This document shows positions 38,514 through 40,541 of a stretch of 64,000 bases of DNA, piece after piece. The notes beneath the pieces were generated by a model. It was not told the origin of the DNA and did not search any database. It worked only from the letters and a program-made list of their open reading frames with translations. Origin of the DNA: Sanguibacter keddieii. Lineage in GTDB: Bacteria; Actinomycetota; Actinomycetes; Actinomycetales; Actinomycetaceae. The stretch covers positions 1 to 64,000 of the forward strand of contig NZ_JVOJ01000059.1 in the NCBI RefSeq assembly GCF_001064145.1, in the 5' to 3' direction. Position 1 is the stretch's first letter. Each line of letters starts with the position of its first letter. The position numbers and the translations under genes were made by a program.

Positions 38514-38640
38514 CCCACAAATGTCGCACGTAATTCCCATGTCAACTTTTTCAACTTTGAAATCAGATCGTTGATATTCCGCGGTTTTCAAGGCGTGATC
38601 CAGGAAACACGTTGGGGAATTACGTGCGAAATTTGGGGAG
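38514..38640. repeat. 127-bp palindromic element, copy A
   Basis: Arms TCGCACGTAATTCCC (38524-38538) and GGGAATTACGTGCGA (38615-38629) extend outward into CCCACAAAT/ATTTGGGG. Inside, CTTTGAAA and TTTTCAAG flank the invariant CGTTGATATTCCGCGGTTTTC (starts 38569). No open reading frame. Copies B and C follow. Confidence 0.85.
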
Positions 38641-38778
38641 GTCTCAGCGGCACCTGCGGTATCGACGGTATCGACGGGATTTACGGGAGGACGCAAACAC
38701 AGCCGTTGCCCGTCCCCGTGGCCCACAGCCACAGTGATGCCCAAATTGCTGGCCACCTTGGCGACCGACGGTTCGCAT

Positions 38779-38883
38779 CCGGATAGGTTATGAACACGCG
38801 GATAGGTTACGAAGATCCGGATAGGTTATTAAGCTATCCGGATGCGCATAACCTATCCGGATCGTGACAACCTATCCGCGTAA
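38779..38883. repeat. GGATAGGTTA box cluster (copy 2)
   Basis: Three forward boxes (38781, 38800 and 38819 regions), a CCGGATAG-CTATCCGG centre and inverted boxes TAACCTATCC. GATCCGGATAGGTTA (38814-38828) pairs perfectly with TAACCTATCCGGATC (38849-38863), and CGCGGATAGGTT with AACCTATCCGCG outside it. Confidence 0.85.
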
Positions 38884-38934
38884 CAGATCCGCGAGCGCAG
38901 GCAAGCTTCTCCTCAACACTCCCAAGATTCCACG

Positions 38935-39061
38935 CCCCCGCAATCTCGCATGCAATTCCCCCACACTTCTTTCAAACATTGAAACCAGAACGTTGATATT
39001 CCGCGGTTTTCGAGGGGGACAACAGAACAAGCTCCGGGGAATTGCATGCGAAATGTGGGGA
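38935..39061. repeat. 127-bp palindromic element, copy B (divergent)
   Basis: Arms TCGCATGCAATTCCC (38946-38960) and GGGAATTGCATGCGA (39037-39051), with the same core CGTTGATATTCCGCGGTTTTC at 38991-39011. The two arm positions that differ from copies A and C change in both arms, keeping the pairing. It lies about 130 bases ahead of the antitoxin gene. Confidence 0.85.
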
Positions 39062-39165
39062 GCCCTCTCTCAGTCCGGTTGTTTCTTTCCCATCCAACCG
39101 CCCGAGTCGGCCACCTCGGGACGACCACAGACCCGGCCTCGTACCTACCGACGACCGCTTCACCA

Positions 39166-39185
39166 ATAGTGCACGCGTGCACTAT
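39166..39185. promoter_or_regulatory. 20-bp perfect palindrome, likely autoregulatory operator
   Basis: ATAGTGCACG followed by its exact complement CGTGCACTAT, ending 9 bases before the antitoxin ATG and overlapping a possible -10 (CACTAT). A perfect dyad at this place is the expected site for the HTH domain of the antitoxin. Confidence 0.7.
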
Positions 39186-39194
39186 CATGGAGAC

Positions 39195-39665
39195 ATGAGC
39201 CGGTTTCAACGTGACGATGCGCCGTCCCTCGTGCGTGCTGCACGTCAGGACGCGTCCCTCACGCAGGCCGAGCTGGCGGGGATGACCGGGATGAGCCAGT
39301 CGACCCTCGCGCAGATCGAGTCCGGCAAGCGCGCAGTCTCCTCCGAGCTGCTCGAACGCATCCTCCGCACCGCCGACTACCGCCCCTCTGTGCCGCTCGC
39401 CCGCTACGCGTCCTCGATCAGCACCTACGCCCAGGAACGAGGCCTCGGCACCCTCCGCGTCTTCGGCTCGGTTGCCCGGGGCACGGACGGATTCGAGTCG
39501 GACATCGACCTAATTGGCACGCCAACCCGCGACCTGTCACTGTTCGAGTTGGCGGACATCGCATCGTTCGCAAGCGAGCTCACCGGCTTCCCGACGGAGG
39601 TTCACGCGGATACACACGTGCCCGAAGCACTGCGAACTGCCGTTGACGAGGCCGTGGCACTATGA
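39195..39665 (+). CDS. MNT-type antitoxin with N-terminal XRE helix-turn-helix
   Basis: The 156-aa protein joins an N-terminal XRE-like HTH (about 13-60, LTQAELAGMTGMSQSTLAQIESGKR) to a minimal nucleotidyltransferase with the exact GSx10DxD motif (GS 91-92, D103, D105). In MNT-HEPN systems (MntA/HepT type) the MNT protein adenylylates the toxin to inactivate it. Here the HTH likely also represses the operon at the palindrome just upstream. The ATG at 39195 follows GGAG; the longer frame runs through repeat B and is rejected. Its stop overlaps the toxin ATG by 4 bases. Confidence 0.85.
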   Translation: MSRFQRDDAPSLVRAARQDASLTQAELAGMTGMSQSTLAQIESGKRAVSSELLERILRTADYRPSVPLARYASSISTYAQERGLGTLRVFGSVARGTDGFESDIDLIGTPTRDLSLFELADIASFASELTGFPTEVHADTHVPEALRTAVDEAVAL

Positions 39666-40057
39666 GTGAGTCTGCTCCCTTCACCCCTCGGCCGCGAGTG
39701 GCACGCAGACACGCGCCCAGTTTCGACGCTGAGAACTTCCTGCACGAACTCGACGTCATTGCCCACCGCGTCAAGCGAGTTACCGCTGTCCCCGCCGAGA
39801 CCTTCAGTTCCGATTGCCCGGAGTACGACTCCGCCTGCATGGTGATCATCCGGCTGGCCGCATTCCTGGAACGCGAAGAGTACGCACCCTACATGGATGC
39901 CCTAACCTCACCTGAGAAGCGCGCCCTGCGCACGACCCGCAACATCGCGGCGCACTCGGGGTACCAGAGCATGGACGACCAGCTCCTGTGGATGGCCGTC
40001 ACCCGCAACGTGCCCGACATGATCGAGCGCCTGCGCGCCGCAGTCTCACGCGGATAG
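39662..40057 (+). CDS. HEPN-domain toxin
   Basis: The 131-aa protein is mostly helical and ends with the HEPN RNase motif Rx4H: RNIAAH (Arg93, His98), followed by GY (Tyr101), close to the tyrosine that MntA-type antitoxins modify in HepT. In HepT the motif is Rx4HxY; here the tyrosine is one residue further. ATGA overlap with the antitoxin gene indicates a coupled operon. The TAG stop at 40055-40057 is part of a GGATAGGTTA box, so the box cluster begins inside the coding sequence. Confidence 0.82.
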   Translation: MSESAPFTPRPRVARRHAPSFDAENFLHELDVIAHRVKRVTAVPAETFSSDCPEYDSACMVIIRLAAFLEREEYAPYMDALTSPEKRALRTTRNIAAHSGYQSMDDQLLWMAVTRNVPDMIERLRAAVSRG

Positions 40058-40116
40058 GTTACGAAGAACCGGATAGGTTATTAACCTATCCGGATCGTGA
40101 CAACCTATCCACGTAA
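40050..40116. repeat. GGATAGGTTA box cluster (copy 3)
   Basis: Two forward and two inverted boxes. The centre is a perfect palindrome of CCGGATAGGTTA and TAACCTATCCGG around one T (40069-40093). The first box supplies the toxin stop codon. It may serve as the 3' structure of the toxin operon. Confidence 0.85.
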
Positions 40117-40174
40117 CAGATCCGCGAGCGCAGGCCAGATCGGCCTCAGCACTCGCACGATTCCACACAGTTCC

Positions 40175-40300
40175 CCGACAATCTCGCACGTAATTCCCAT
40201 GTCAACTTTTTAAACTTTGAAATCGCATCGTTGATATTCCGCGGTTTTCAAAGGGTGTCCCAGAACACGCTCCGGGGAATTACGTGCGAAATTTGGGGAG
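40175..40300. repeat. 127-bp palindromic element, copy C
   Basis: Arms TCGCACGTAATTCCC (40184-40198) and GGGAATTACGTGCGA (40275-40289), core at 40229-40249. Outer arm ends are 106 bases apart, as in copies A and B. The flanks share GATGCCCAAAT.GCTGGCCACCT with the right flank of copy A. Confidence 0.85.
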
Positions 40301-40430
40301 GTCCCGCCACGGGATCTGCGGGATCGACGGCCTCTACCGAGGCACCAACGCAGTCGTCGAGCGAACGCCCACCGCGGTGCCCACAGCGATGCCCAAATCG
40401 CTGGCCACCTCGGCGACCGACGGTTCGCAT

Positions 40431-40541
40431 CCGGATAGGTTATGAACACGTGAATAGGTTACGAAGATCCGGATAGGTTATTAAGCTATCCGGATGCGCA
40501 TAACCTATCCGGATCGTGACAACCTATCCGGATCGTGGCTA
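40431..40541. repeat. GGATAGGTTA box cluster (copy 4)
   Basis: Nearly identical to the cluster at 38779-38883, with three forward and inverted boxes around CCGGATAG-CTATCCGG. Both are preceded by the same ~45 bases (GGCGACCGACGGTTCGCATC). The gap 40542-40672 up to murB holds nothing else recognised. Confidence 0.85.

Follow-up and report, generated by a model that had tools for sequence, protein, structure and literature searches.

What are the three palindromic repeats that lie around an MNT-HEPN gene pair in this part of the window, by which we mean the whole 64,000-nucleotide stretch of Sanguibacter keddieii DNA that was analysed, and what reads or moves them? The original prediction described a conserved palindrome with paired arm changes, present in three copies, and offered several readings, among them a structured RNA, a protein-binding dyad and the ends of a small mobile element. 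The observation itself was confirmed, while its interpretation was partly supported. All three copies (A, B and C; Table 1) have 106-base cores bounded by 12-base inverted arms, with both arms of B reading CATGCA where both arms of A and C read CACGTA, and the invariant inner core, CGTTGATATTCCGCGGTTTTC, is the same in each. Two details required amendment. Specifically, the TTTGAAA and TTTTCAA sequences said to surround that core are found in A and C and are ATTGAAA and TTTTCGA in B, and the MNT-HEPN module said to be flanked by the copies is enclosed by B and C, with A lying outside. When aligned, the copies share an identical 21-base centre and about ten further half-conserved bases on either side of the core. 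Folding z-scores were -3.5 to -6.4, as DNA and as RNA, on five strands (A, B and C on the plus strand, A and C on the minus strand), and on each of them none of 200 dinucleotide shuffles was as stable as the element.

Table 1. Coordinates of the palindromic element and its neighbours, in positions of the window
Feature	Position	Strand	Details
Copy A of the element	38514..38638	+	Core 38524-38629; arms 38524-38535 and 38618-38629; CACGTA spelling
Copy B of the element	38936..39060	+	Core 38946-39051; arms 38946-38957 and 39040-39051; CATGCA in both
Copy C of the element	40174..40298	+	Core 40184-40289; arms 40184-40195 and 40278-40289; CACGTA spelling
HTH and nucleotidyltransferase protein (MNT-type antitoxin-like), 156 aa	39195..39665	+	Pfam HTH_3 1.3e-12, NTP_transf_2 1.1e-4
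HEPN/HepT-like protein, 131 aa	39662..40057	+	Pfam HepT-like E 5.5e-5, 23.3 bits, just below the cut-off of 23.5
Inverted array of GGATAGGTTA iterons, 19-base period	38777..38878		Separate neighbour of the element
Second GGATAGGTTA iteron array	40047..40114		Separate neighbour of the element
Third GGATAGGTTA iteron array	40429..40533		Separate neighbour of the element

The palindromes are a family of small repeats between genes, within one group of mouth bacteria. In the window's genome (G000), the arm pattern TCGCAYGYAATT occurs at 133 sites (66 forward and 67 reverse), with 0 for the backwards-pattern control, and a DNA search of the same genome returned 47 matches. The original prediction had staked its reading on the existence of further copies, and a model search found them. 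R1, a sequence-only profile built from 88 copies that are mostly of the CACGTA spelling, matched 12 of the 35 genomes of the genus, abundantly in eight and sparsely in four, with none in the other 23. Counted on both strands of each palindrome, R1 matches numbered at least 99 each in G000, G010, G011, G037 and G041, 79 in G039, 54 in each of G028 and G029, 15 in G033, two in each of G034 and G035, and one in G031. Across bacterial and archaeal species genomes, the arm-pair pattern was found in at least 84 stretches, and the 80 matches listed came from Schaalia sp. ORNL0103, S. odontolytica FDAARGOS_732, Actinomyces bouchesdurhonensis, Actinomyces sp. HPA0247 and an assembly filed as Xylanimonas cellulosilytica 352_XCEL. 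The last of these (JVKM loci, e.g., L068 and L069) carries a Schaalia-group repeat and is probably misnamed. An origin in phages or plasmids was considered and rejected, copy A having no match in either by distant blastn (E 1e-5) and the arm-pair pattern 0 occurrences in viral contigs.

No named MITE, IS end or known RNA family was matched, a point on which the prediction also held. Rfam 15 reported only rRNA and tRNA above the gathering score over the whole window, and between 38400 and 40600, at E up to 1, six weak microRNA-family matches that stay far below their gathering scores and include one over copy B. The exact arm strings gave no match in a literature search; among the matches listed for Schaalia odontolytica, Actinomyces odontolyticus and Actinomyces MITEs, nothing concerned the element, and none were found for REPIN/RAYT in Actinobacteria or for palindromic repeats in Schaalia. 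The excerpted text of PMC12369343 does not mention it.

The family is built as an inverted pair of arms around a spacer of nearly fixed length. Among the 175 copies first collected, for which lengths of 90-130 were allowed, the core measures 105 bases in 117, 106 in 36 and 107 in 16 (169 within 105-107, six off), and the element reaches about 125 bases with its flanks. Perfect inverted 11-mers starting TCGCA were counted at spacings of 60-159 in loci partly selected by their arms; only the spacings 105 (110 cases), 106 (41) and 107 (14) have at least three. Of the 492 exact arms in the fetched loci, again partly selected by arms, 482 can be matched to a second arm with four mismatches or fewer. 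By hand count, 88 of the 100 arm places listed from the 133 in G000 fall into 44 pairs, with starts 93-95 apart in 41 and 71 apart in three, and unequal arms in one pair; among the 12 unpaired places, nine have a partner one base off and one lies at a contig end. A shorter class of 83 bases was also seen (L047 1300-1382, L087 1362-1444, and C34 and C41 of G000), with CATGCA arms in the cases seen. An inverted pair forming the unit at fixed spacing, with singles rare, is the hallmark of REPINs; terminal inverted repeats on a small, gene-free unit are that of MITEs; both were found. Further, the near-fixed length, the arm pairing and the dispersal, mostly intergenic, bear out two of the proposals made from the window, namely selection on a dyad or hairpin and the ends of a small non-autonomous element.

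The structured non-coding RNA that was offered as a third proposal fared less well, as the copies share no consensus interior fold beyond the arm pairs, which speaks against a classical structured RNA. On an alignment (A3) of 130 of the 136 G000 and G011 copies (cores of 105-107 that contain no N, are not duplicated and do not lie at an end), RNAalifold returned the 12 arm pairs only, and on the 116 copies of 105 bases it returned two tiny hairpins besides the arms. Many local interior column pairs rank above or near the arm pairs in mutual information (116 copies), so covariation there reflects subfamilies too. The variable interior usually carries a TTTCAAAC.TTGAAA motif and a central CGTTG.AATT dyad. 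By eye, the whole element may be viewed as a pair of half-sites that face each other and have diverged, and a single arm, AATNTCGCAYGYAATT, is self-complementary only in part.

The arms occur in two spellings. Only CACGTA (C) and CATGCA (T) are common, and both arms of a copy are spelled alike (CC or TT) in 44 of 48 copies in G000 and in 76 of 87 in G011, the other 11 G011 copies having unequal or odd arms. Three G011 copies combine one CATGCA arm with one CAGGTA or CAGGAA arm, and for two of these the ortholog interior is 95-96% identical. Arm changes that break pairing, named beforehand as evidence against the original prediction, do occur in the few copies with unequal arms, while most copies keep their pairing. 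Specifically, among the 130 aligned copies, columns 17-115 are C-G in 68, U-A in 56 and broken in six, and columns 19-113 are U-A in 68, C-G in 56, U-G in two and broken in four. The observed pairing, number of both-sided cells and covariation score were never reached by shuffles of these 130 copies, while neither the pairs with both-sided change (5 versus a shuffled mean of 7.2) nor the further pair types (16 versus 21.9) were in excess; with these two no higher than in the shuffles, the pattern is one joint switch rather than scattered compensation. Hence, the compensatory change seen in copy B belongs to a single two-state block switch at arm positions 6 and 8 rather than to many independent compensations.

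The balance of CACGTA to CATGCA arms is 98/33 in G000, 125/39 in G010, 52/16 in G039 and 71/16 in G041, and 40/112 in G037, 65/107 in G011, 12/12 in G028, 6/18 in G029 and 2/4 in G033; the remaining genomes have 0 or 1 arm of each spelling, and reversed controls gave 0 except for a single match in each of two genomes. Both spellings are found with all three main centre types. Since L062-L141 and four more loci were fetched with the CACGTA pattern only, statements on spelling rest on the G000 and G011 copies, which were found by model or BLAST, and on the whole-genome counts. The matched spellings suggest that a protein or a copying process reads both ends.

How one spelling gives way to the other can be followed at 16 of the 48 own copies, for which flanks anchor a G000-G011 ortholog pair. 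Eight of these pairs go from CC to TT, and one goes from CC to a switched arm plus an odd one; four are CC/CC, two are TT/TT, and the remaining one has an odd arm in G000. Over the 16 pairs, differences fall at 36 of 64 occurrences of arm positions 6 and 8, at 5 of 320 of the other ten arm positions and at 240 of 1287 interior positions. Interior identity is 0.63-0.77 in six of the eight fully switched pairs and 0.85 and 0.89 in the other two; in the four CC/CC pairs, it is 0.84-0.94. With the interior changed in six of the eight switched pairs, most switches are explained by whole-element replacement. At a few loci, the arms switched and the interior was kept. The interior of L203:17208 is 0.89 and 0.91 identical to the same-position CC copies of G000 and G039 and at most 0.72 identical to any non-orthologous TT copy examined. 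L136 and L205 differ at four arm positions and three interior sites, L205 having an identical TT sibling in tandem in G011, and L055 and L176 also differ at four arm positions, with interiors 0.91 identical, compared with 0.84 to the best other TT copy. The L230 tandem pair within G011 differs at both arms, at the first base and at five interior sites. For L203:6620, a non-orthologous TT copy (0.83) is nearly as close as the CC ortholog (0.85). The wider ortholog counts (210 pairs) include one locus more than once, under different ids.

Presence and absence of copies speak to mobility. At the window locus, G000, G010 and G011 carry three copies each and G037 carries two, while G028, G039 and G041 have a single copy and G029, G033 and G035 have none. 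Among the loci first collected, no clean empty site was convincing, and a directed search gave one. One gap is filled in G000, G037, G041, G010 and G011 and empty in G028, G029, G033, G035 and G039; no duplication is seen at its join, where flank divergence blurs the borders. Near this gap, G039 has a single copy where G000 has copy-gene-copy, as expected for a deletion between direct copies. No excision or transposition product was seen. Such presence/absence polymorphism at one site, together with the inverted ends, the small unit in gene gaps and the burst of copy number in one clade, is what an ordinary MITE would leave behind, that is, a unit with the terminal inverted repeats of a DDE-type insertion sequence that amplifies it in trans. 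We consider this unlikely, given that no target duplication signal emerged from 166 copies (words of 2-6 and 8 bases; best offset within the range of 20 shuffles), that among the arm places of G000 (100 listed of 133) none was seen to belong to a longer element with these ends, that none of the 18 Pfam-scanned genes between or beside copies belongs to a transposase family, and that the borders of the element are not sharp.

MNT-HEPN is present at the window locus in G029, G028, G010, G037, G011, G016 and G036 and was not found there in G039, G041, G033 and G035. Since G016 and G036 carry the module without any R1 match, it is probably older than the copies that surround it. No functional link between module and element emerged, since the model detected no element beside the module at this locus in G016, G036 and G029, nor at add-murB in L184, L185 and L181, which also hold the module. 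The element might also be an attC-like cassette recombination site of a putative integrase, in line with the 24 of 56 neighbouring pairs that enclose one predicted gene, the 38 of 56 in direct orientation and the lone G039 copy, for which, however, homologous recombination between direct copies suffices. The copies are also scattered along the chromosome, the scanned enclosed genes look ordinary and point either way, and relatives have MNT-HEPN at the locus without the element, all of which leaves this reading scarcely credible.

With gene gaps called by a home-made gene caller, four of the 48 own copies overlap a called gene, 17 lie in convergent, 15 in codirectional and four in divergent gaps, and for eight the fetched stretch has no called gene to one side. 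Among the 73 copies in codirectional gaps, own and other loci taken together, 55 follow the direction of transcription (p 1.7e-5, with orthologs not independent). In G011, which is closed in one contig and whose copies were taken from the best 150 scored candidates, 70 of the 95 listed copies run in the presumed fork direction (55 of 71 if each same-strand cluster is counted once), and the quarters from origin to terminus hold 49, 26, 16 and 4 copies. The origin was placed by gene content, not dnaA: coordinate 1 of G011 is adjoined by murJ-like (by eye), poly(A)-polymerase-like, penicillin-binding, rpsF-ssb and dnaB genes, which we take to mark the origin region. The genes of G011 are themselves 241:141 leading to lagging. 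In its convergent gaps, which are neutral for transcription, copies run 21:9 with the fork (p 0.043), and in its codirectional gaps the ratio of sense to antisense copies is 28:2 beside leading genes and 9:7 beside lagging genes. Fork direction and transcription direction both seem to count, as the convergent gaps and the difference between lagging and leading genes show transcription alone to be insufficient for the bias.

These counts bear on two alternatives. The first is an element that acts at the RNA level in transcripts and is under selection for the sense orientation; the excerpted texts (PMC2229807, PMC10969869) describe ERIC and Correia elements that act in transcripts. The excess of sense copies in codirectional gaps points that way, as does the lean of arm mismatches toward G-U on the model strand (34 versus 17 C-A in 257 copies). 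Set against this are the fork bias of convergent gaps and the near parity beside lagging genes in G011, the restriction of the RNAalifold consensus to 12 arm pairs, and the lack of any Rfam match above the gathering score, and we regard an RNA-level role as highly unlikely. The second is a chromosome-organising site, for which the sites of SlmA and Noc are models; an old mobile element would have been domesticated, with a binding protein whose drifting specificity dragged both arms along. A spacing that we infer to be near ten helical turns, the 12-base dyad, the switching of arms with the interior kept at some loci, and the terminus depletion and fork orientation in G011 (the one genome mapped) would all suit such a site. 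An organising site would sit poorly, however, with an element that occurs in only 12 of the 35 genomes of the genus, in high number in eight, and whose interior shows recognisable conservation as well. Moreover, flanks matched only 16 of the 48 own copies to one in G011, and at one site half of the compared genomes have no copy. We judge it quite unlikely.

The explanation that we favour, and hold to be probable, is that the element is a clade-specific, REPIN-like miniature mobile hairpin with a putative mobiliser acting in trans. It would spread as a folded single strand, handled in trans by a putative arm-reading protein that, at least in the window's genome, would not be a RAYT. The two spellings, two bases apart, may mark two recognition states, and the element would stay active only with matching arms. 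Insertion sequences of the IS200/IS605 type insert into single strands, which the fork orientation fits; the fork-oriented, origin-weighted copies of G011 would likewise fit insertion into single-stranded DNA of the lagging strand.

The likeness to REPINs, as described in excerpts of PMC3116915, is extensive. There, inverted REP doublets are the unit, spacer length and hairpin capacity are critical, compensatory changes are common, and groups GII and GIII stand two nucleotides from GI and are tied to specific RAYTs. Similarly, the element has short, conserved inverted arms around a variable spacer of fixed length, with the pair as the unit, and it occurs between genes in many copies, with sides that change together and arm groups two bases apart (PMC3116915, excerpts). 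It deviates from REPINs in four respects. First, the RAYT-type Y1 transposase is missing from the window's genome: Y1_Tnp (PF01797) had 0 matches in G000, while five of 14 control genomes were positive, E. coli included. Because of this absence, we do not file the element as a REPIN. Second, REPs are themselves palindromic, and the arms of the element, judged by eye, appear weakly so at best. Third, the element is oriented and origin-weighted in G011, whereas REPINs are placed at random in extragenic space in the excerpts of PMC3116915. Fourth, the host is an actinomycete. Much the same anatomy as that of REPINs, in an actinomycete genome that shows no RAYT, points to another way of making and keeping such hairpins. 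Spelling proportions differ between strains, and a gene that segregates with spelling would be a candidate arm reader. There is a practical side as well: contigs of this assembly end at such repeats, which also appear to give rise to deletions between genes in an oral genus that is common.

A bolder account, which we regard as doubtful, builds on the REPIN-like hairpin and has a non-RAYT arm reader exist in at least two specificities. As that protein changed, the paired ends would have been rewritten at two positions each, with interior and flanks kept, and whole-element replacement would have done the rest. Rewriting with the interior kept is clear at a handful of loci so far. If true, a protein and its paired DNA ends would be co-evolving genome-wide, caught half-way in several strains.

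Other published palindromic repeats resemble the element in part. Elements of the Correia type duplicate TA, which has no counterpart here, and Rickettsia palindromic elements are often fused into genes, unlike the element, which lies mostly between them. ERIC is an imperfect palindrome. By description in the excerpted sources, ERIC/RU-1 are 127-bp repeats that likewise lie mostly between genes, although ERIC is enterobacterial and two-state matched arms are not mentioned for it there (PMC2229807, PMC10969869). Correia/NEMIS elements (107 and 155 bp) are described with inverted ends and a short form of the same length, and the Rickettsia elements (105-146 bp) share the length and stem-loop form (PMC2229807, excerpts).

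The surroundings of the copies yielded several observations in their own right. The GGATAGGTTA iterons, inverted arrays with a 19-base period, are a second clade-specific dispersed repeat. Their doubled pattern occurs in 10 of the 35 genomes, including G033 and G035, which are poor in the main element, and in 0 of 25 others, with 0 for the reversed control; among the literature matches listed for the iteron strings, the titles look unrelated. DUF559/MTES_1575 nucleases, encoded by three genes between copies (L032, L071 and L202), were considered as the mobiliser, an idea that found no support, as genomes lacking the element have them just as those that carry it do. The ten iteron-holding genomes show 4-7 MTES_1575 matches each and the other 25 show 1-6, a mild excess at most. 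A protein without a Pfam or NCBIfam match also lies between copies in three strains (L032 5688-6515, minus strand; L203 6752-7789, plus strand; L071 1837-2688, plus strand), and its L032 and L203 versions are, by eye, clearly alike, with a hydrophobic stretch near the start. Finally, in two strains a C-terminal piece of murB is duplicated beside the intact gene, at L181 (2022-2198) and L179 (1488-1664).
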